Origin: Bacteroidetes Order II. bacterium
GTDB lineage: Bacteria > Bacteroidota > Rhodothermia > Rhodothermales > UBA2364
Length of the DNA stretch: 64,000 nucleotides
NCBI GenBank assembly: GCA_016788705.1
Contig: JAEUSQ010000018.1
Span: 62,001-126,000 of the forward strand
Direction: 5' to 3'
Shown here: positions 12,255-22,137 of the stretch, piece by piece
Position numbering within the stretch: the stretch's first letter is position 1
Layout: each line of letters starts with the position of its first letter
The notes under the pieces: generated by a model
Databases searched by the model: none
The model's input: only the letters and a program-made list of their open reading frames with translations
Told to the model about the DNA's origin: nothing
Position numbers and translations under genes: made by a program

Positions 12255-12518
12255 TTAAATAAAGCGGCTATGTTCTTCTTTTTCAAGGCCTAATGCCTCG
12301 CGCCGAACATACTTTTCGTGGCCCAATTGGTAAAAAACCACACTGTCTGTAAGCGGGTCCATCACCTTGCTTGCACGTTGTTGTAAGGTTTTGTATTGAG
12401 ACTCGGTTAACTCACCTTCAAATACAGAATTTTGCACCCAAACCATGTATTGTCGGAAAAGTTTCAGCATCTTGGCACAACGCTTGGCCTCAACGTCATA
12501 AACTGCTATAACAAACAT
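12255..12518 (-). CDS. cas2: CRISPR-associated endonuclease/adaptor Cas2
   Basis: The 87-aa protein has the normal length for Cas2. It opens with the first beta strand FVIAVYDV, whose aspartate (D8) is the conserved Cas2 acidic residue. Next comes RCAKMLKLFRQYM and the hallmark VQNSVFEGELT segment, then the D-S-V-V-F-Y strand near residue 60. Cas2 dimers bridge two Cas1 dimers in the integrase that inserts new spacers next to the leader. The gene starts 27 bp after cas1 ends, so the two are probably co-transcribed. It is the last cas gene before the leader and array. The ATG at 12518 is the only sensible start. Confidence 0.96.
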   Translation of the reverse strand: MFVIAVYDVEAKRCAKMLKLFRQYMVWVQNSVFEGELTESQYKTLQQRASKVMDPLTDSVVFYQLGHEKYVRREALGLEKEEHSRFI

Positions 12519-12545
12519 CTCATGTTTTTTATTTATTAAAGAATA

Positions 12546-13631
12546 TTACCACCACATCTTAAAACCTGTATAAGGCTCTTTGTTAGGGTCTATTAAATGG
12601 CGAATAAGGGAGTAGCAATCTAATCGGATAAGACGCTCGTAACTAACCTTTCGGTTCAAGGCTCGATGTTGGATAATGGTTCTTAGCCGCTCATCCCAAT
12701 GCTGAACAAATAGTTGCCTGCCGCTTTCTTTTAGATACACCCCACCCAGGCGTGCTTCAAAATGCTTGGGTTGTATGACGTTGGTTTTAAGGAGTTTAAA
12801 GATGGCACGATCCACCAAAAGCGGCTTAAAAACCTCGCTGAGGTCTAAGGCTAAGGAAAACCGTCGGTCTCCCGGCTCGTGCAAATAGCTAATGGTGGGG
12901 TCTAATGCGGTGCGGTAGATTTGCCGGAGTACCGATCCATAACAAAGGGCATTACCAAAACTGATTAAGGCATTCAGTTCATTGGATGGAGGATTTCGTT
13001 CCCGCTTGTCAAACGGAAACTTTTCGGTGATGCCTTGCCCCAGAATAGCAGGCCAGAGGGTGTAATAGGTGTCCCGCATATTGCCCTCGATGCCCATGAG
13101 CGCCGGAACCTCCGTCATCACGTCCAATTGCCCGCGCAGCATTTCGATGCGTTCAATACCTGCCTGTAAACGCATCTGGTCTTCTCCTGACTGGCGGGTC
13201 TGGTAATACTTGAGCACCCGAAGGATGTTATATGCCGCTGCTTCCACAAAGACCCGTGCCAGTTTGATCCGCCAAGCTGGTTTAAGGTAATGCTGGGCTT
13301 GGTTTACCCTAAGTCTGCCCGAAAGCAGGCTGTCTCTCGGATAAAGCGTACCCGTGAAATTACCGTAGTAGTCAAAGAAAAAGATGGGCACATGATGCTG
13401 GCATAGAAAGGTGATCAGCTTGGTGTTTAAATCCATCTCACCAAAACAATACAAGGCTTCTACCTGCTCAATCGGAATCGCAGATTTGTCGGTCAGACAA
13501 AGCCCGGAAGGTGCGCCATCGGATAGTGGATGGTCATCCGGCTCTCTGTTTCCATCCATTTTATAAAGGTAAAGGGTGTTGTCTTTGCGTTTTAAACGCC
13601 CACTCGAAAAAATATAATAAGGTCTTTTCAC
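12546..13631 (-). CDS. cas1: CRISPR-associated integrase Cas1
   Basis: The 361-aa protein has the N-terminal beta domain (MKRPYYIFSSGRLKRKDNTL, typical of type I-B-like Cas1) and the C-terminal helical catalytic domain. The expected metal ligands are visible as E182 (in MGIEGNMRDTYY), H251 (SYLHEPG) and D263 (ALDLSEVFKPLLVD). Cas1 catalyses both transesterifications of spacer integration and partners with Cas2 immediately downstream. The start codon appears to be GTG, because no upstream in-frame ATG fits and the protein aligns from this residue. The gene is cut off from cas4 by a plus-strand gene and a repeat block, so cas1-cas2 probably has its own promoter in 13632-13729. Confidence 0.97.
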   Translation of the reverse strand: MKRPYYIFSSGRLKRKDNTLYLYKMDGNREPDDHPLSDGAPSGLCLTDKSAIPIEQVEALYCFGEMDLNTKLITFLCQHHVPIFFFDYYGNFTGTLYPRDSLLSGRLRVNQAQHYLKPAWRIKLARVFVEAAAYNILRVLKYYQTRQSGEDQMRLQAGIERIEMLRGQLDVMTEVPALMGIEGNMRDTYYTLWPAILGQGITEKFPFDKRERNPPSNELNALISFGNALCYGSVLRQIYRTALDPTISYLHEPGDRRFSLALDLSEVFKPLLVDRAIFKLLKTNVIQPKHFEARLGGVYLKESGRQLFVQHWDERLRTIIQHRALNRKVSYERLIRLDCYSLIRHLIDPNKEPYTGFKMWW

Positions 13632-13729
13632 TTTTTTTCGACAAATTAAGTTATGTTTTGCAATCTCATGTGTTTATAAGAGTAAGCGGATGATTTCCGT
13701 CTATTCATTAATCATAAAACCAAAATATT

Positions 13730-14206
13730 ATGCCAAACCTTCCTTCTACGGTGGCTTTTACGGAAGCAGACCGAATCGCTTTAATACAAAAGGTAGATGA
13801 GATCTACACCGCATTAAACTTTATGGTGACACTAACCAATGAAGAACGGAAAAGTATCAAGCAAATCAGTGACAAACACTATGGTTTTATGACCAAGTTA
13901 ATTGATCATGCAACACAGCATCCGGAGTTCCGCCCAATGCATATGGATATGGATAAATTGAGTCATTATTATGACCTTGTTCTTAAGCTCAATACAATCA
14001 GAAGCAGGGTTGAGCAACTTGAGATTCAACTGTCTGATACCATTGCGCTAATGGGTTCCGAAGCCGATGCCGAAGCACGTAAGTATTACAAAATGGTTCA
14101 TGTAGCTGCCAAAGACGGTGTGGCAGGCGCGCAACCTATATATGATGACCTACGCAGTCGTTTTCCGGTTGGGAACAGAACCAATAACGAAACCCCCAAA
14201 CCATAA
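13730..14206 (+). CDS. Conserved hypothetical protein embedded between cas1 and cas4 (158 aa)
   Basis: The product is a soluble, helix-rich 158-aa protein with no signal peptide and no membrane segment. It starts MPNLPSTVAFTEADR and ends with a polar tail. The segments TNEERKSIKQISDKHYGF, EQLEIQLSDTIALMGSEAD and GAQPIYDDLRSRFP look like a family of small Bacteroidota proteins I have seen only as hypothetical; I know of no function. It is transcribed opposite to every cas gene around it. It shares a roughly 100-bp divergent promoter region with cas1 and ends in its own terminator (14230-14265). That arrangement suggests an independent insertion rather than a Cas subunit, though a link to adaptation cannot be excluded. 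Confidence 0.8.
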   Translation: MPNLPSTVAFTEADRIALIQKVDEIYTALNFMVTLTNEERKSIKQISDKHYGFMTKLIDHATQHPEFRPMHMDMDKLSHYYDLVLKLNTIRSRVEQLEIQLSDTIALMGSEADAEARKYYKMVHVAAKDGVAGAQPIYDDLRSRFPVGNRTNNETPKP

Positions 14207-14229
14207 AATTCAGGTTTCGGTATCAAGAT

Positions 14230-14265
14230 CGGGTGCCTTGCAATAGGCGGGGTACCCGTTTTTTT
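14230..14265 (+). terminator. Rho-independent terminator of the 158-aa gene
   Basis: An interrupted G/C-rich stem (CGGGTGCC against GGGGTACCCG) is followed by a run of seven T, starting 23 bp after the stop codon. Confidence 0.7.
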
Positions 14266-14310
14266 GAGAGGTCGTTTTAAAGGGCATACGGTTATTCCAC
14301 ATAGGCATGG

Positions 14311-14524
14311 TACTTATGATAAGGAGGTTCTACATAGTCGAGTAATCAGGTTGAACTTATGATAAAGATACTTGGGTTTACCATAAGGAGGTGTTACATG
14401 GTCAAGTAATTAAGCTGAGCTTACTATAAGAAGGCATTATTTTATCATAAGAAGGTATTACATGGTCGAGGAATTAGAAGGAGCTATAATAAGGGAATTT
14501 GAGCTTATGATAAGCTAATGGTGT
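14311..14524. repeat. Iteron-like phased repeat block, 64-bp unit, palindromic CTTATnATAAG motif
   Basis: Three 64-bp units (14311-14374, 14375-14438, 14439-14502) and a partial fourth match each other; units 1 and 2 are about two-thirds identical. Each unit carries two copies of an 11-bp palindrome-like motif, CTTATGATAAG or a close variant. Copies begin at 14313, 14356, 14377, 14420, 14441, 14483 and 14504, with spacings of 43, 21, 43, 21, 42 and 21 bp (whole numbers of helical turns). The third 21-bp slot of each unit instead carries ATGGTCGAG-like sequence (14334, 14398, 14462). The final copy is a 15-bp palindrome, AGCTTATGATAAGCT. The block lies between the convergent 3' ends of the 158-aa gene and cas4. 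Period 64 is not a multiple of three and the units have stops, so it is not coding. Its function is unknown. Confidence 0.85.
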
Positions 14525-14536
14525 ATATTGTGGCCT

Positions 14537-15052
14537 CTATCCATAGCAGCATTCCTCAAAGGAGCACTTAGCGCAGAGCTTCCGGTTGGGGTTGCGGTCT
14601 GGGGGGAGGGGCGCCTGAAACAGTGCGGCAATGGCATGCACCATTTCACCAAGGCGGACTTCATCTTCCGGACTTAGCGTAACGGGCTGGGTCTTTTTGA
14701 GCAGGGGGTATTGGATTAAGCCTGTATAATTTGAGCAGCCCGATAACTTGAGCAGCCACAGATAGAATCTGGTTTGCCAGATATGGCTTTCTTCGGCGGC
14801 CTTGCTTTTCTTTACTTCGTACAAAACCCCATCTTTTAGGTTGGCTCCGTCTAACTTACCCACCAATGGAATGCCCGCATAAACGGCTTCTAACATTAGG
14901 TCTTTATTCGTGCGTTCATAAGCCTGTTCATGCAAAAGCCGCCCCAAAGCCACCGTCTCGCTTTCCTGCTCCATATCAATGCCTTGTTGCTTAAGCCATG
15001 CTTTTCGAGGGCATAGTGCATAATATCCAATACTATAACCTGAAATATTCAT
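14537..15052 (-). CDS. cas4: CRISPR-associated nuclease Cas4
   Basis: A 171-aa protein if started at the ATG at 15052 (MNISGYSIGYYALCPRKAW), which is where Cas4 similarity begins. A longer reading to 15154 adds 34 residues that look like translated leader and overlap the hairpins at 15093-15193, so I reject it. The first Fe-S cysteine is in YYALCPRKAW and the last three are in the C-terminal KLCAKCSFEECCYG. The PD-(D/E)xK nuclease core is seen as GKLDGANLKDGVLYEVKKSK. Cas4 trims prespacers and selects PAM-containing ends together with Cas1-Cas2. It is the last gene of the effector operon and is separated from cas1 by about 1.3 kb of unrelated sequence. Confidence 0.93.
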   Translation of the reverse strand: MNISGYSIGYYALCPRKAWLKQQGIDMEQESETVALGRLLHEQAYERTNKDLMLEAVYAGIPLVGKLDGANLKDGVLYEVKKSKAAEESHIWQTRFYLWLLKLSGCSNYTGLIQYPLLKKTQPVTLSPEDEVRLGEMVHAIAALFQAPLPPDRNPNRKLCAKCSFEECCYG

Positions 15053-15092
15053 GGTGGGTAAGATGGGCGTATTAAGTAGGGGTCTCTTTAAA

Positions 15093-15193
15093 ATGGGACA
15101 TCCTCTTTTCCAAGGAGATGCCCCATTGGCGTCAAAGCACGTTGCAACCAGCAACTAAAACGGAGAACATGACTTTTAAAGGACGTGCTTTGA
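15093..15193 (-). other. Structured intergenic region between cas7 and cas4
   Basis: Two hairpins can be drawn. The outer arms of the larger one are a perfect 11-bp inverted repeat (15132-15142 TCAAAGCACGT, 15183-15193 its complement, 40-nt loop). Nested in it is a 5-bp stem (15141-15145 GTTGC with 15151-15155 GCAAC). A second, imperfect stem (about 15094-15101 GGGACATC with 15117-15124 GATGCCCC) lies closer to cas4. Possible roles are partial termination after cas7, mRNA processing or a small RNA. Confidence 0.5.
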
Positions 15194-15194
15194 A

Positions 15195-16235
15195 TTATAC
15201 GTCGTATTGGTAATATGAGAGTAATTCAATGAGTTTAGTTTCTGCATCTTCTAATGCATCGTCAGACCCACGAACACCTTCTACATAACCACCACAGGCT
15301 GGCATGGTAAATAGGTTAACATCTTTGACCTCTCGAACAATCGGAATAGCAGCCTGGCGGGCACTCTCCTCTTTTAAATCAGCCCGAATTGCACTTGCAA
15401 GACGGTTTGCATTTGTGCTGATTGCAAAGGCGAGCGTCTCTTGTGGGCTATAGGTTCTGGATTGATTGGTGGAAACACGCCAATTCACCAGAGCATGTGC
15501 TAATGCAGGAATAATTTTATCTCTGCGTTCTTTAGGACATACAATGCGAAGCTTGTCATTTGAGACGTTCCAGCCTTTTTCTAACAAACCATCAATCTTG
15601 CCTTGAGCGATTTCAGGGTCATGTTGATTGATCGAAACACTAAAAAGAGTACTGAGATCAATAGCAATATCGAATACGAAAAGTCCTGAAGCCCGTGTAT
15701 TGTCTGGAATCCAAAGGCGACGCGGGAGGGTGCGAGCATTGGACTGAAGAAATGTAAGAATCTCTTCGGAACTCATTTCCTCACCTTTCTCATTCAGTAC
15801 ACGTACCGGATGTTCATCAGGGCGTTCACTTCGATCAAAGGTCAGATTTTCCTTCGGCAATGACGAGAGCAGCGGATGTAAAGGGCGCATTGCCGAAATA
15901 GAAAGCGGGCTTCTGCGCTTTACAGTTACAACGCCTGGGCGTGCTTGCATCCAGCCCCCCAATAGTTGATCCGTAAATTGAGGATCGCAAGGAGACCATG
16001 GTTCTTTGTTTTCAATGGATTTTTCTTTATTGACTTGGTAATTGAAGGTGATGGGGGCTTGCGGTTCATCCAATATATCTAATAGGGTGTTGAGCAATGA
16101 ACGCTTGACTTGTTGCCCACTCGAATATGGCACGGATCGCCCAAAAATGGGATCGTAATAGTTCTTTTGTCCGTTTTCGACAACAAAGACGGTATGGTCA
16201 ACATGGCGCAAACCGCGAATGAAGAGGTATTTCAT
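15195..16235 (-). CDS. cas7: Type I CRISPR effector backbone protein Cas7
   Basis: The 346-aa protein opens MKYLFIRGLRHVDHTVFVV, a short RRM-like first strand, followed by SGQQVKRSLLNTLLD around residues 39-53, a phrase typical of Cas7 backbone subunits. Several Cas7 copies coat the crRNA spacer in the surveillance complex. The assignment rests on length, this motif and position between the large subunit and Cas4. I am less sure of the subfamily (Csh2- or Cst2/DevR-like). The gene starts 60 bp after cas8 ends and is followed by the structured gap before cas4. Confidence 0.8.
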   Translation of the reverse strand: MKYLFIRGLRHVDHTVFVVENGQKNYYDPIFGRSVPYSSGQQVKRSLLNTLLDILDEPQAPITFNYQVNKEKSIENKEPWSPCDPQFTDQLLGGWMQARPGVVTVKRRSPLSISAMRPLHPLLSSLPKENLTFDRSERPDEHPVRVLNEKGEEMSSEEILTFLQSNARTLPRRLWIPDNTRASGLFVFDIAIDLSTLFSVSINQHDPEIAQGKIDGLLEKGWNVSNDKLRIVCPKERRDKIIPALAHALVNWRVSTNQSRTYSPQETLAFAISTNANRLASAIRADLKEESARQAAIPIVREVKDVNLFTMPACGGYVEGVRGSDDALEDAETKLIELLSYYQYDV

Positions 16236-16295
16236 GGTTATAACTCCTGTTTGTTAAATAAGTATTTGATTTAGCATTGGAATTTTGGTGAGCAA

Positions 16296-17588
16296 CTACT
16301 TGTTGCTTTCAATGGCATACTTGAAACGAATCAAGGTCATAAAAAGCGGAAAATGATCTGCTGGCATGAACATGATTTCCGTTACAATGTCATCAAAAAA
16401 CTGATCATCAAGGCTACCAGATTGAATTGCTTCTTTCAGGTTCTCAATGAATGCTTTTCTGCTACTTGCATCAAGAATCTTATCCACCAAATTCTTTCGT
16501 GTAGTTTTGCCTTGTCGGTCTTCCAGTACAAAAGCACGTAAGTGCTTGGCTATTTCCTGGGACTTTTCTAGAAGTTGCTTGTTGTCTAACATAGCTGTAA
16601 TCCAGGTTTGATAAATGGTAAATGTAATGGCTGTTGCTTCATCCTTAGGTGGCTTGAAGCTCTTCTTGCCTGTCATGATTTCACGCAACTTGGAAGGCTC
16701 TAAAGCTTGTAATCCAATGCTGCCAAGCATACAGGCTCGTTTAAAACTGAATTCTGTGTCATAGACATCTTCCAGTTGTTGCTGTGCAATCTCAAACTCA
16801 GATAACTTAACAAGATGTGAATAAATCTCATTTAAGCGCTTAACCTGAGGTAAGTTGATTTGGATAAATCCTATGGTCTTGTTCATTTGCCCAAGGCTAT
16901 ACACATAGGCAATAAGATTTTGATTGGGATGTTGGTTGGCCAGTGCAAAGATGACTTTGATCCATGATTGTGTTTTTACTCCTGCTTGATCTCCTTTGGC
17001 TTGGAACATGGAATAGTCAAAGCCTAACATGGGTGAGTCTGAATTGAACCTTCTGTTAGAACAATGAGAAAGCCAAACACCATTCCATGTGTTAATTTGA
17101 TTGCCTTTCTGGTTTGGGGTGTCAATTAATCTGTTTCGGTATTGTTGCCAGCCTTCATAAGTTGCCCAAATCACCTCATTACTGTCAATGAGTATTGAAT
17201 AGCCGCCTTCAAGACCAATACCTAATCCCGCACCAATCCAAGAAGCATAAGAGTCCTCTGTACTCAGACCAAGGTTTAATGACGTTACCTGACCGGATGT
17301 TGTACCGTCAACACCAGATGCTGCTGCTCCCACAAAGGTACTCCCATTAGGAGCGGCCGTTTGAATGAGTTTGTGCAGCTCCATTTTGGTGTTTTTTCGC
17401 TTAATCGGGTCACTGGCAAACTTTGAATGTTGAAAAGGAAGCGCATTATGCACATGAAGTAGATAACGCGCGTTATCAAAGAAGAGAGGATAAAAGACGG
17501 TGTCAAAGAATGCTTCAACACTTAGATTTGTGTTTTTTCTTTGATTATAGAGGGTTACTAATTTTCGCCCAATGTATGCTGTGTACAT
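16296..17588 (-). CDS. cas8: Type I CRISPR effector large subunit, Cas8 family (short, divergent)
   Basis: A 430-aa protein with N-terminal MYTAYIGRKLVTLYNQR followed by EAFFDTVFYPLFFDNARYL. A glycine-rich segment (GAGLGIGLEGGYSILID, about residues 119-135) is followed by an all-helical C-terminal third (about 287-430). No CxxC zinc finger is visible. By position (3 bp after cas3, before cas7) and size it is the large subunit that recognises the PAM and recruits Cas3. It is shorter than typical Csh1/Cas8b. It resembles the small Cas8a1/Csx8-like families, but I cannot fix the subfamily by eye. No separate small subunit (Cas11) is present in the operon. Confidence 0.75.
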   Translation of the reverse strand: MYTAYIGRKLVTLYNQRKNTNLSVEAFFDTVFYPLFFDNARYLLHVHNALPFQHSKFASDPIKRKNTKMELHKLIQTAAPNGSTFVGAAASGVDGTTSGQVTSLNLGLSTEDSYASWIGAGLGIGLEGGYSILIDSNEVIWATYEGWQQYRNRLIDTPNQKGNQINTWNGVWLSHCSNRRFNSDSPMLGFDYSMFQAKGDQAGVKTQSWIKVIFALANQHPNQNLIAYVYSLGQMNKTIGFIQINLPQVKRLNEIYSHLVKLSEFEIAQQQLEDVYDTEFSFKRACMLGSIGLQALEPSKLREIMTGKKSFKPPKDEATAITFTIYQTWITAMLDNKQLLEKSQEIAKHLRAFVLEDRQGKTTRKNLVDKILDASSRKAFIENLKEAIQSGSLDDQFFDDIVTEIMFMPADHFPLFMTLIRFKYAIESNK

Positions 17589-17591
17589 AAA

Positions 17592-19796
17592 TCAGATGCT
17601 CCGCATATTAAAGGGTTCTGTAGGATCTGTTTTGGGCAGTTGAAGTCCAACCTGTTTACTATACCAGTCATTAGGTATGACCAAAGGCGAGTGCCCAATT
17701 TTCTTCAAAGGGTTCTCTGGTACACCTTCTAGCGCAGGCATTTTTCCATATAGGTGTCTTATTGAATTCCACGTGACTGGTATTTCAAAGTTTTGCCTAA
17801 ACTCATTGCCTGGCTTACGGTATGAACCAACATCCTTATGTCGAATCACACAAGCCGACTCTACTTCCAATACGTCCATGAGCACCGTCCTTGGGTGGTG
17901 GCATAAGTTGTAAATAACCCATTGATCTTGCTGGAAAATCAAGTGACCATCTATGCTTACCAGATTGAAGGTTTCATTTGGATAAACACGATCAATTAAG
18001 GATTGTAATTCGGTTTCTTTCAGTAATTCGCCTTGGTCAGGTAAGGCTTCAAAACTGCGATCCAGAACGTCTTTCTGGTAAGGGAGGGCACTCTTTGGGT
18101 CTTCTGGAGGCGCAATCACATGCACTGGTTTGTAATGCCCAATGCTTTGTTCCGTACGTTTTCTGTTCACGCGACCGAAGCGCTGGATGAGCGCATCTAA
18201 TGGTGCACAAGCCGTTATCATTCGATCAAAGCTAATGTCCAGACTGACTTCTACAACTTGTGTGGCACACACAATGCAGGGTCCATGGGTTTTGTTGAAC
18301 TCTTGGATATCATCCTCTAACTTTGCACGGTCTTTACGCCTGAACCGACTATGGATAAGCATTGAGGGGATATCTGGATACTTACTTTTTAGCTCCGTAA
18401 ACCAAAATTGGGCATCAAGTACCTTGTTTTGGACAATTAAGAGTCGCTCCTTATTTGCGACAGCCTCTTCCACGATATCATAGACTTGTTCTTGCGTTGC
18501 TATTTTATAGACCTGATGTCTATTGAATTGTGCCAGCACATGATCCGGTAAGGTGACTTCAAGTACATGTTCATGCCCGCCCAATAAATCAATTATATGA
18601 TTTTTGAGCAGTGTTGGGATTGTGGCTGTACCTACATGAATTCTACATCCCAAAGCCTTTAAGGTCTTGATGATTTCAAGTACCATTGCTTGAGATTCTT
18701 CCCGATATACATGCACTTCGTCTAAGATGACATCTTTTTCTGCCACATCTAATGCAACTGCTTCGTACCCATTCATGCCAAAAATCAAACAGGCTAATTG
18801 GTGCGGAGTCATAACCTTTATGCTTGCACCCGGATGCCTTTGAAGATGTGTTTCTTCTAAAGTGTTATCCTTATTCACCGTAATTCTTGAAGCTGCATGA
18901 ACCCGCCGGATATCTGTTTCAGGTAAATCGTGACGTATTCTATCAAACATTGCATTGATAGAAGCTTGAAAAGGAAGGGTATAAAAAAGCCGTCCTTGGC
19001 ACCGTCTTAAAAGATAGTCCGTTTTACCTGCACCAGTCGGGGCAATGACAAGCGTGTGTGGTTTATGACTTGAAGCAGAGAGTAGCGAAAGAGGGTAGAG
19101 GTTGTGCTTTCGATTTTCATAATATGATAGGTCTGGTTGTTCATAGAAGCGGCTTACAGCATTCATTGTTTGGTGCATACGATCTGATGCAAAGTGATCC
19201 GCTCCCATCAATAAACCTCGCCACCGTGACCAACCTGTCTGTAGGTTTTCGCAATAGTTAAGGGTGTAGTTAAACGCCTCCCTCGCTTCTTCAATAGAAA
19301 TAGGGTTTGTTTTAAGATCAAATGCTTTTGCAACAAGTAAGGCATTGGGCATCCATGTTTCCCATTCTTGAGCATGGCGGTTAAATACGGTTTCTTCACC
19401 TCCTATGATTTTTTCAACTAAGTCCAATAGCCCTCTCTCTCTTCTGTCATGTTGAACGGATTTATGGTGTCCAATAACCATCTCAATCAGTACATCCCAT
19501 TCTTCTTTTGGAAAAAGAGGAAGAAATAAGATGGAGGAAATTTCATGACGATGAGGACATGCTGTATTCTCGGCTAAATCCGCTTCCGTTAACTGATCTG
19601 AAACCACCTTTTGAAAAAAAGGATGGGACTTGCCTAGATCATGTAAGATCGCTCCTTTTTTAGCCAATGAAACGTCGAAGCCATGTATAGGACTTAAATG
19701 AAAACTCATGTGTTCAATGGCTTGCGTCACATGCAAGGTGTGATCGAACAAGGTTAAATTACCCTGGTCAATGCTTTTTGCTAATAAAGGCTTCAT
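17592..19796 (-). CDS. cas3: CRISPR-associated HD nuclease/helicase Cas3
   Basis: A 734-aa fusion of the Cas3'' HD nuclease (about residues 1-210) and the Cas3' superfamily 2 helicase. HD residues include H52-D53 in ILHDLGKSH, the histidines of CPHRHE (near 83) and GHH (110-111), and D200. Helicase motifs are Walker A APTGAGKT (252-259), the DEVH box (359-362) and motif VI LIQRFGRVNRK. Cas3 is recruited to target-bound effector complex and degrades the displaced strand. Its start overlaps the cas5 stop by 4 bp (ATGA), showing translational coupling, and cas8 follows after 3 bp. All visible catalytic motifs are intact, so the interference machinery looks functional. Confidence 0.97.
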   Translation of the reverse strand: MKPLLAKSIDQGNLTLFDHTLHVTQAIEHMSFHLSPIHGFDVSLAKKGAILHDLGKSHPFFQKVVSDQLTEADLAENTACPHRHEISSILFLPLFPKEEWDVLIEMVIGHHKSVQHDRRERGLLDLVEKIIGGEETVFNRHAQEWETWMPNALLVAKAFDLKTNPISIEEAREAFNYTLNYCENLQTGWSRWRGLLMGADHFASDRMHQTMNAVSRFYEQPDLSYYENRKHNLYPLSLLSASSHKPHTLVIAPTGAGKTDYLLRRCQGRLFYTLPFQASINAMFDRIRHDLPETDIRRVHAASRITVNKDNTLEETHLQRHPGASIKVMTPHQLACLIFGMNGYEAVALDVAEKDVILDEVHVYREESQAMVLEIIKTLKALGCRIHVGTATIPTLLKNHIIDLLGGHEHVLEVTLPDHVLAQFNRHQVYKIATQEQVYDIVEEAVANKERLLIVQNKVLDAQFWFTELKSKYPDIPSMLIHSRFRRKDRAKLEDDIQEFNKTHGPCIVCATQVVEVSLDISFDRMITACAPLDALIQRFGRVNRKRTEQSIGHYKPVHVIAPPEDPKSALPYQKDVLDRSFEALPDQGELLKETELQSLIDRVYPNETFNLVSIDGHLIFQQDQWVIYNLCHHPRTVLMDVLEVESACVIRHKDVGSYRKPGNEFRQNFEIPVTWNSIRHLYGKMPALEGVPENPLKKIGHSPLVIPNDWYSKQVGLQLPKTDPTEPFNMRSI

Positions 19797-20374
19797 GACA
19801 GGGTCCGTGTGTTTTTGTCTAATGGGTTTCCTGAAATTCTCAGGCTCCCATACATGGGTTTTGCTTCTTCAAAGCGGCTAAAACCAACAAGGAAAGACGT
19901 ATCTGATTGCCCGAATAAGAGTTCAAAGCCGCTTAGCGCATCGAATTCATCAGGTGTTAGGACAAAGATGTCTTCTTCTGGCAACATCACGTCTTCGTTT
20001 CGACAAAGGCAAATATGCTGCGATCGTGCCTTTTCTGCATCCTCAATTGTCGGGAAAGCCAGATACAGTATAGGTTCAACCATAACACCTCTTTTGAGAA
20101 TAGAACGAGGACGACTAACCGTCATGATTTTGTCCTTGCCCTTGCCAGAACTTTTCTCAATGCTCCCCTTCGGTTGGGTCTGTTCTTGCTGAATAGCAAT
20201 GTTGATATAAGAAATACAATGGCGAAGGATGTCTGAAACCTCTAGCTTGATCTTCATGCCTTCGACAATGCTTGGTGTGAGGAATTGCTGGCTTAATGTT
20301 TCCTCATCCCGTACGGCTGTCCATGGCTTGATGAATCCAAACGGGCCTTGGTATTTAACGACGTAGTATTTCAT
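19793..20374 (-). CDS. cas5: CRISPR effector subunit Cas5
   Basis: A 193-aa protein whose N-terminus (MKYYVVKYQGPFGFIKPWTA) fits the first RAMP strand of Cas5. The region GMKIKLEV and the later RPRSILKRGVMVEPILYLAF fit the Cas5 layout. Cas5 binds the crRNA 5' handle and contacts the large subunit. It lies directly between cas6 and cas3 and overlaps cas3 by 4 bp. Identification is by position, size and RAMP-like character rather than a single decisive motif. Confidence 0.8.
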   Translation of the reverse strand: MKYYVVKYQGPFGFIKPWTAVRDEETLSQQFLTPSIVEGMKIKLEVSDILRHCISYINIAIQQEQTQPKGSIEKSSGKGKDKIMTVSRPRSILKRGVMVEPILYLAFPTIEDAEKARSQHICLCRNEDVMLPEEDIFVLTPDEFDALSGFELLFGQSDTSFLVGFSRFEEAKPMYGSLRISGNPLDKNTRTLS

Positions 20375-20407
20375 GGTCAGTAGGTTATAAGTTTGTATAT
20401 CATTGAA

Positions 20408-21076
20408 TTACCGTAGCGCGCCAAAGCCACTGCCGGTGAGGTCTCCTAAGCCGGTTAGCCAGACAAACTTCAGGGTTTCTGGTGTGCCATGTACCCATAT
20501 TGGGCAATTACTGCCTTTATGCTTTAGGTTCTTGTATTGAATAAGGCGAGGCTTGGCTTTTGGGTAGGCGCGGTCAAAAGCCACCTGCACATTTAAGTGG
20601 TCTCCGGTAAAGCCTGCTTTCTCTAATTTGCGGCGGAGGGACAGGGTGAGCAATTCATCAGCTCGTGGATTGTCAAAGAGCAGGTATTCTTTCGTGTTAT
20701 CGGGTCGTTTGTCTCGTATCAAAATGGGGCTATCGGTATTAAAACGGTACGTAGAGCCAAAATTGGGCGCAGGGCATTCCTGTACTTCAATAACGCGAAT
20801 CCCTTGTAGCATATCTGGATCGCGAATAATACCCATAATGGCTCGTTTTGCTACTTCAATATCCCAAAAGCTGATCTGCCAAGAAACGCCATGATCGAAC
20901 CTTAACTGGTTGCCAACTTTTCGGCCACCATTTAATTGTCCGAAGCTATAAAAGGACTGGTCGTTGTGCAGTTGTTCATCATAGCCCATCCATTTGTGGA
21001 GCACGCCTTTTAATTTATACGTATAGTCAAAGTCCAATCCATTTCTTGGGGGGCTTGCTTTAAGTAGGATTCTCAT
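20408..21076 (-). CDS. cas6: CRISPR RNA endoribonuclease Cas6
   Basis: The 222-aa RAMP protein begins MRILLKASPPRNGLDFDYTYKLKGVLHKWMG. The N-terminal ferredoxin-like fold contains candidate catalytic histidines (H27 and H37 area), and the protein ends in the Cas6 glycine-rich loop GLGDLTGSGFGALR. Cas6 cuts the precursor within each repeat, here presumably leaving the 8-nt handle ending TTGAAAT. It is the first cas gene of the effector operon, 33 bp before cas5 and 95 bp after the WYL regulator. A promoter could lie in 21077-21171. Confidence 0.9.
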   Translation of the reverse strand: MRILLKASPPRNGLDFDYTYKLKGVLHKWMGYDEQLHNDQSFYSFGQLNGGRKVGNQLRFDHGVSWQISFWDIEVAKRAIMGIIRDPDMLQGIRVIEVQECPAPNFGSTYRFNTDSPILIRDKRPDNTKEYLLFDNPRADELLTLSLRRKLEKAGFTGDHLNVQVAFDRAYPKAKPRLIQYKNLKHKGSNCPIWVHGTPETLKFVWLTGLGDLTGSGFGALR

Positions 21077-21171
21077 AGTGATACCCTAAGGTTTAATTAA
21101 TGGGTTTAGGAGTGATTTAAGAGCAATAACGAGCGCGTGTAGGTGATCATACACTTTATGACAACTGTTTT

Positions 21172-22137
21172 TTACCTTTCATAACTTTCCATTACAGATT
21201 TTGCCTCTTCCAAAAGCCTTATTTGCATTTTCTTGGGTTGGATCACCTTTATCTTTGCTCCCCAAGAGCGGAGGAAAGCAGCTACCTCGTCGTCATTGGT
21301 AACCAAGAACCTAACGATCAGGCTCCCGTCTTCGTTTTCGGCAAGTACTTCTTGCGAGGCATGGTATTTTTTGGTTTTAAAGTAGGTTGCAACTTCTTTC
21401 AAAGCCTGAATTGTCAGCGTGTAGCGGGTATTTCCGGCCAATTGGCTAAATCGGTCTTTATAGTGCAGGTCGGGATCGAACGCACGTATTTGGGCATCTT
21501 CCATTTCTGGCTCCACGTGTAAGACCCGCGAGAATTTAAAATCGAGGTACTTCTTGCGCTGATGACACCATGCTACAAACGTCCATGAAGGAAGGTCTAT
21601 CATCACCGGATCCACCTTTCGGTCTTGGCTTACCTGTCCACTTCTTCCGGTTTGATAGGCGATGGTTAGGGTTTTATATTCTTTTTTGGCCTTATGGACA
21701 GCAAAGAACACTTCTGGGCGCATGTTTTCGAGGGGTGGATCTCCAAACCGAAAGTGGGCTAAGTCTTCGTGTATTTCGGTTTTTGTATCTGCGTCCAATT
21801 CCATTTGTTGGTTCAATGCTGCCAGTAACCGATTGATGTCCTTTGCCAGAGGCGTGCGCATCAGTTGTTGCCGTGCAGCATTTAGGGCCATCAATAAAAC
21901 CAATTGTTCATTTTTGGTAGCCCGAATGAGGGATAAAGATGGTTCACGCTTATCCGCATTGAGTACATAAAAAACCTGTTTGCCCTTTTTTACTTTATTT
22001 ATCATACCTTGCTTCAATAGGTCGTTGAGGTAGCGATCCAATTGACGAGGAGAACAGCCTACTAAACCAATTAAATCTTGGCGTGAAAGATTTTCTTCTT
22101 GGATAATGAACCTTTTGGTTTGCTCGAAATCGCTCAT
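21172..22137 (-). CDS. WYL-domain transcriptional regulator associated with the cas operon
   Basis: A 321-aa protein with an N-terminal winged helix-turn-helix (about residues 1-58, SRQDLIGLVGCSPRQLDRYLNDL). A central WYL domain follows (about 150-215), with SWTFVAWCHQRKKYLDFKFSRV in the place of the signature W-Y-L strand, then a WCX-like C-terminal domain (about 235-321). WYL proteins are commonly ligand-sensing regulators of defence genes, often near CRISPR loci. It is codirectional with and just upstream of cas6, so it may be the first gene of the operon or may control it from its own promoter. The ligand is unknown. Confidence 0.88.
   Translation of the reverse strand: MSDFEQTKRFIIQEENLSRQDLIGLVGCSPRQLDRYLNDLLKQGMINKVKKGKQVFYVLNADKREPSLSLIRATKNEQLVLLMALNAARQQLMRTPLAKDINRLLAALNQQMELDADTKTEIHEDLAHFRFGDPPLENMRPEVFFAVHKAKKEYKTLTIAYQTGRSGQVSQDRKVDPVMIDLPSWTFVAWCHQRKKYLDFKFSRVLHVEPEMEDAQIRAFDPDLHYKDRFSQLAGNTRYTLTIQALKEVATYFKTKKYHASQEVLAENEDGSLIVRFLVTNDDEVAAFLRSWGAKIKVIQPKKMQIRLLEEAKSVMESYER

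Follow-up and report, generated by a model that had tools for sequence, protein, structure and literature searches.

A gene for a small all-helical protein, an intrinsic terminator and, 3' of both, a helically phased array of dyad-symmetric sites form a module that is widespread in Bacteroidota. The copy from which this analysis started lies in a type I CRISPR-Cas locus of the window, by which we mean the whole stretch of 64,000 nucleotides that was analysed. It comprises a 158-aa gene on the plus strand (13,730 to 14,206), a terminator on the same strand (14,230 to 14,265) and an array, to which no strand is assigned, at 14,313 to 14,514; the 98-bp divergent intergenic region between the gene and cas1 (13,632 to 13,729, likewise unstranded) was taken as the 5' part of the module. 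No description of the array module was found in the open-access literature, to which the search was confined. As a combination of gene and array the module is categorically new; its likeness to an iteron or centromere set is only what we infer.

In the window, the array is a decayed tandem repeat of 43 bp (2 x 21-22 bp) and, as the earlier note had described, sits between the 3' ends of convergent genes. Its seven palindromes, at 14,313, 14,356, 14,377, 14,420, 14,441, 14,483 and 14,504, depart from CTTATNATAAG by 0, 1, 2, 1, 1, 2 and 0 mismatches, respectively, and the spacings claimed for them (43/21/43/21/42/21 bp) are exact, every step corresponding to two or four helical turns. The second element proposed in the same note is also present, reading ATAGTCGAG, ATGGTCAAG and ATGGTCGAG at about 14,334, 14,398 and 14,462, where it forms degenerate sites intermediate between the palindromes. 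The 64-bp unit into which these elements had been combined has to be replaced by a unit of 43 bp, that is two steps of 21-22 bp, as seen in the sister species G001 (UBA2364, DDTM01000049.1). Indeed, the same spot of that genome holds a clean 43-bp tandem repeat (unit GCTTATNATAAGGAGGTTGTACACGGTCGAGCAGTNAGGTTGA, 4.3 copies, 91% match), to which the window array is related, having diverged and undergone indels of about 21-22 bp; since 43 is the sum of 21 and 22, such indels account both for the alternation of 43 and 21 bp and for the apparent 64-bp unit (43 + 21). Tandem Repeats Finder, the kind of search that the earlier note had suggested, does not detect the window array, but the 43-bp repeat is found in G001. 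Shuffled sequence does not reproduce the pattern: with a chain defined as CTTATNATAAG-like sites at spacings of 20-22 or 41-44 bp, the array has seven sites in a chain of seven, whereas 5000 dinucleotide shuffles averaged 0.48 sites and contained no chain above 2. Single CTTATNATAAG-like sites occur across the window at chance frequency (27 seen, 30 expected), and the rest of the window, outside the array, holds no phased chain of them.

The array is also conserved in this close relative. The palindrome arms are identical between the window and G001 at 58 of 60 positions (96.7%), compared with 86 of 121 (71.1%) for the remainder of the array (Fisher p 2e-5), and the centre base of the palindromes varies freely. 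The 158-aa proteins are 99% identical, their genes differing by 10 synonymous and 2 nonsynonymous codon changes, and the terminator (hairpin 14,230-14,258, T run 14,259-14,265, -22.1 kcal/mol) retains its hairpin and T run in the G001 copy (-25.3).

The surrounding CRISPR-Cas locus lies on the minus strand and comprises the CRISPR array (repeat ATTTCAATACCCGAAGGTGCGATTAAAAG), cas2, cas1 and, beyond the module, cas4, cas7-, cas8- and cas5-like genes, cas3, cas6 and a WYL gene, the identities of cas7, cas8 and cas5 coming from weak matches or from position. The two neighbours, both on the minus strand and both outside the module, are cas1, divergent (12,546 to 13,631; PF01867, E 3.5e-86), and cas4, convergent (14,537 to 15,154; PF01930, E 6e-38). 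In a further congener, G002, both the 158-aa gene and the array are absent and cas4 and cas1 stand 21 bp apart. This, together with the canonical adjacency of cas4 and cas1, makes an insertion of the module between the two genes, in the lineage of the present genome and G001, the simple reading of the sequences. The array was considered as a CRISPR array and rejected, every part of its 43-bp unit being repeated, with no unique spacers. Its candidacy as a cas-specific element or CRISPR-Cas accessory was rejected as well, on the strength of the family survey described below and of G002, whose related cas4-cas1-cas2 genes lack the module. In the G002 locus itself (L050, 530-9,923), WYL, cas6, cas4, cas1, cas2 and the CRISPR repeat are kept and the positions of cas3, cas5, cas7 and cas8 hold different genes, which reads as an effector cassette exchanged around a constant adaptation module. 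Along 12,255-22,137 of the window, identity to G001 is about 95-97% across cas2, cas1 and the 158-aa gene, drops, exactly where the array lies, to about 82-88%, a level that continues into cas4/cas7, and climbs to 96-99% at the WYL gene; this step likely marks a recombination border at the array. More generally, the case calls for caution, as repeats within cas loci may be passengers.

The family of the 158-aa gene is patchy across Bacteroidota, with relatives in 30 of 394 sampled genomes (about 8%) and in 60 of 295 genomes of one Bacteroidota family (20%), at one to eight copies per genome, some of them degraded. Of 47 relatives, 38 have a shuffle-significant period of 21/22 or 42-44 bp within 600 bp downstream of the gene, and 3 have one on the 5' side (Fisher p 6e-14). 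Over lags of 12-79, each of the 36 strong signals on the downstream side has its maximum at a multiple of 21-22, as against none of six upstream. The pattern held in 46 new, held-out loci, where the downstream signal was strong in 37, of which 36 were in phase, compared with 6 strong signals among 45 upstream regions, 2 of these being in phase. Moreover, at 24 of 34 loci a terminator-like hairpin separates the gene from its array, two controls giving 10 and 11. Many aligned arrays contain dyads (GACTnnAGTC, GAACCnGTTC, GTACCTTCGGAAGGTAC, AATCAAAATTGATT and others), with scores that are significant in some arrays and not in all. The motif itself varies among loci, paralogues in the same genome included. 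Five divergent members (L027, L028, L029, L036 and L079) have no clear array. The nearest neighbours of most relatives are non-CRISPR genes, and a WYL or Cas-like neighbour was met at only one (L105) of 40 module loci elsewhere. It is by family comparison that the array belongs to the 158-aa gene and not to cas4: of the two places where the earlier note had proposed to look for the phased motif, homologues of the 158-aa gene have phased arrays next to them, of varying motif, and cas4 of G002 has none.

These data bear directly on whether the array might have arisen neutrally, as a minisatellite, or might serve the cas genes as an ordinary multi-operator, for instance of the WYL regulator. Tandem repeats are common between convergent genes, and the repeat units of G001 are 91% alike; nevertheless, a linkage to one gene family with a fixed period of 21-22 bp across many families, contradicting such an origin in the held-out loci as well, the conservation of the arms, the position of the array beyond the gene 3' ends and far from the cas promoters and the non-CRISPR surroundings of most relatives make this explanation scarcely credible. 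Nothing in the analysis ties the WYL protein, one of the two binders that had been proposed, to the array.

Several observations on the surroundings of the module were made in passing. In the arrays of L016, L023, L240, L243 and others, several of them unrelated loci, half-sites are joined alternately by AAAA and by TCCGA/CTCCGAG linkers. A T9SS-type C-terminal sorting domain is encoded at the end of the gene before the module at 7 of 47 loci (L022, L030, L037, L038, L087, L094 and L096), which may be chance because such tails are common in Bacteroidota. Related ORFs of about 120 aa, resembling HTH regulators, directly follow three arrays of one genome (L021, L032 and L039 in G244). Of 40 module loci, 10 have restriction-modification genes nearby (one HsdR being counted by hand; L106, L112, L116, L123, L124, L131 and L133-L135), compared with 1 of 40 random regions; as they were near none of 20 further module regions, an association with defence islands is not claimed.

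Regarding the protein, no convincing match was obtained in Pfam, NCBIfam, PHROGs or PADLOC, stray weak matches to helical models (E 1e-4 to 1e-2) being limited to one to three family members. Its AF2 model (pLDDT 88.8) has helices at residues 12-28, 37-42, 48-63, 74-128 and 134-142, followed by a low-confidence, disordered C-terminal tail, and across the family the cores are mostly acidic and the tails often basic. Foldseek returned nothing at E<=0.001 against the PDB and viral structures, and the best Z in VIA-align was 5.7 with an rmsd of 15; these searches recognised no DNA-binding fold, and we do not claim that the fold is new. A ribbon-helix-helix fold was considered for the N-terminal segment N-x-[VI]-S-x-x-[IL]-P, which does not track the array motif (partial r 0.004). 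There is no Pfam match to this fold in 30 members and no strand in the AF2 monomers, though a monomer cannot show a dimeric N-terminal ribbon, and PF01402 has no match in the genome itself to serve as a comparison. Scans of phages, plasmids and viral contigs, run for phages and viruses with single divergent queries and not exhaustive, gave no homologue apart from one Thiodictyon plasmid gene. The latter (L098, 3,914-4,381), on plasmid pTs417 of the gammaproteobacterium Candidatus Thiodictyon syntrophicum, is the lone homologue found beyond Bacteroidota, and no array is visible in the 262 bp 3' of it.

Whether the array acts as DNA or as RNA can be approached through its variation. In dyad columns, GT mismatches (57) are about as frequent as AC mismatches (65), giving no RNA-strand bias; along the unselected dyad axis there is no covariation beyond column make-up, half-sites varying independently, and along the chosen axis the excess is modest and of a size that axis selection can produce. 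Together with the lack of any Rfam match within the window, the equality of GT and AC and the independence of the half-sites fit an array working as double-stranded DNA sites for a protein and not as RNA. The array could nonetheless be a string of hairpins transcribed by read-through of the terminator or from its own promoter, akin to a type III toxin-antitoxin system or an RNA scaffold: many of the dyads are foldable as short hairpins, and the gene length, the repeat array and the intervening terminator are reminiscent of type III toxin-antitoxin loci. Such a role appears quite improbable, given the absence of a GT over AC excess on either strand and of a compensatory excess on the second axis, the terminators placed before the array and dyad centres of 0-2 nt.

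If the sites are read by a protein, the 158-aa protein is the candidate supported by sequence comparison, through the conserved linkage and through covariation of its tail with the motif. Among 10-residue windows, it is the C-terminal tail behind a conserved RF whose similarity correlates most strongly with that of the motif once core similarity is accounted for (partial r 0.131, permutation p 0.002, proteins at >=95% identity being left out of the tail tests), and over all pairs none of 146 core windows reaches this value. When the comparison is limited to close pairs (core similarity >=0.5), the tail is matched by 6 of 146 core windows, of which the best lies towards the C-terminal end. Controlling for the 3' UTR leaves the correlation unchanged (0.12), although part of it could come from co-inherited 3' ends. 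Small and drawn from related sequences, this covariation is support, not proof, for cognate recognition. Motif and protein core disagree in part. Some proteins at 88-92% identity have unrelated motifs, so that base-specific reading would rest on very few residues; L240 and L243, 91% identical proteins of one genome, differ in this way, and copies in G613 at 91% protein identity have flanks and terminator in common and not the motif. Copies at 65-71% protein identity, on the other hand, can have a common motif.

This variability could also mean that the array is used by a DNA-binding or architectural protein of the host, which would read spacing and shape instead of sequence, for example at an insulator or boundary marking the 3' end of the element. 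Spacing is indeed conserved where sequence is not, and inside arrays exchanges between A and T or C and G outnumber other transversions (707 vs 480), as reading of shape or of the minor groove predicts. We consider this explanation improbable, as the arrays are tied to the 158-aa gene family, conservation of the arms between the window and G001 is at the level of bases and an association between tail and motif would be unexpected. Moreover, since paralogues of one genome differ in motif, a single host factor with a fixed specificity would not serve for all arrays.

The module has evidently been duplicated. The copies L235 and L236 are 98.65% alike over 963 bp (-74 to +888 from the gene start) within unrelated flanks, L230 and L231 are 83% alike over 1.2 kb and G369 contains a duplicated stretch of 1.4 kb. 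Duplicated copies begin 74-165 bp before the gene, near the promoter, and end inside the array or at its end. In addition, a G-rich motif, AAGTGGGnGGGGGTACTT, phased at 21 bp, is found near the distal array end at 29 of 103 loci, has no upstream occurrence in any of the 103 and gives one match in 570 kb of control DNA; it often occurs as an inverted pair (L187, L240, L243, L183, L019, L031, L230 and others). The array might therefore be a substrate of recombination, the gene and array being a mobile element of about 1 kb of which the array, with its distal motif, would be the acting 3' end or the place of exchange or conversion. The position of the module between cas4 and cas1, an insertion when compared with G002, the near-identical copies, the patchy distribution and the degraded copies all speak for mobility. 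We regard it as a rather unlikely function of the array: no transposase or recombinase motif was found in the module, the copy ends that were inspected showed neither terminal inverted repeats nor target duplications, copy ends inside arrays fit gene conversion as well, and a pure end signal would not need many phased sites. Transposition and gene conversion are thus both compatible with the copies.

The explanation that we favour, with confidence falling somewhat short of even, is that the encoded protein binds its own double-stranded array and that the module works like an iteron or centromere set; the linkage, the geometry, the constraint and the DNA-level nature of the array are observed, whereas the binding, its stoichiometry and the purpose are what we infer. 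The gene for an all-helical protein of about 160 aa and the terminator are followed by roughly 6-14 dyad-symmetric sites, which a spacing of 21-22 bp places on the same side of the helix. Dimers of the protein would lie side by side on their own array, the basic, disordered C-terminal tail helping to read the site, and would build a one-faced nucleoprotein platform acting as an iteron or centromere set. The motifs of paralogues would diverge since a common specificity would cause interference, as in plasmid incompatibility. Possibly the module serves to maintain or spread the element, to control copies or to organise DNA locally. The mostly acidic cores of the proteins, the lack of a recognised DNA-binding fold, the small size of the tail correlation, the unrelated motifs of some highly similar proteins, the divergent members and the Thiodictyon homologue without a clear array and the dyad scores that fall short of significance in some arrays count against this explanation. 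More tentatively, the module may represent an undescribed class of Bacteroidota element, in which a small helical protein reads a private, fast-diverging, phased array behind its own terminator and paralogues are kept orthogonal by swaps of motif and tail. If true, there would be chromosomal incompatibility groups operating without replicon or partition motor, and possibly a new means for small elements to persist in chromosomes. Arrays that keep their geometry and dyads while their sequence changes, with the protein tail following, would also offer natural pairs of protein and DNA specificity.

Among known systems, RAYT/REP elements likewise have a small gene beside palindromic repeats, chromosomal and patchy in distribution. 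RAYTs, however, are HUH (Y1) transposases with dispersed REPs. The module protein is all-helical, Pfam matched none of 30 members to a transposase, and the palindromes beside it form a phased, locus-specific cluster. Type III toxin-antitoxin systems of the ToxIN kind resemble the module in a gene for about 160 aa, a tandem repeat array and a terminator between them, but their RNA antitoxin repeats stand upstream of a beta-barrel toxin gene, whereas the module array is downstream of an all-helical one. The iteron arrays of plasmid Rep systems (P1 incA, F incC) have steps of about 19-22 bp on one face of the helix, and some lie downstream of rep. The module has the same spacing by two helical turns; iterons are direct repeats, not dyads, and the module has neither a replicon nor homology to the winged-helix Rep (no Pfam or NCBIfam Rep match). 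No Rep, ParA/ParM or ParR homologue recurs beside it, and no ParM/ParA-type NTPase family is a recurrent neighbour in 40 loci, up to +-8 kb. In ParMRC systems, ParR, typically ribbon-helix-helix, binds only its cognate parC, which usually lies upstream of parM and has repeats of 10, 11, 17 or 20 bp in different plasmids (PMC9426499). Compared with these, the module array is 3' of its gene, actin or ParA partners do not recur, neither Pfam nor the AF2 monomers pointed to a ribbon-helix-helix, dyads at intervals of 21-22 bp make up the sites and most loci are chromosomal. The likeness lies in a small protein with an array of phased sites next to its gene and in the presumed divergence of specificities, cognate specificity and family divergence being what sets incompatibility in ParMRC (PMC9426499). 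The module recurs in numerous genomic surroundings that have nothing in common and does not characterise type I cas loci, but the earlier suggestion of an iteron, centromere or multi-operator named the right class, as one-face phasing, dyads, conservation of the arms and the lack of an RNA signature indicate.
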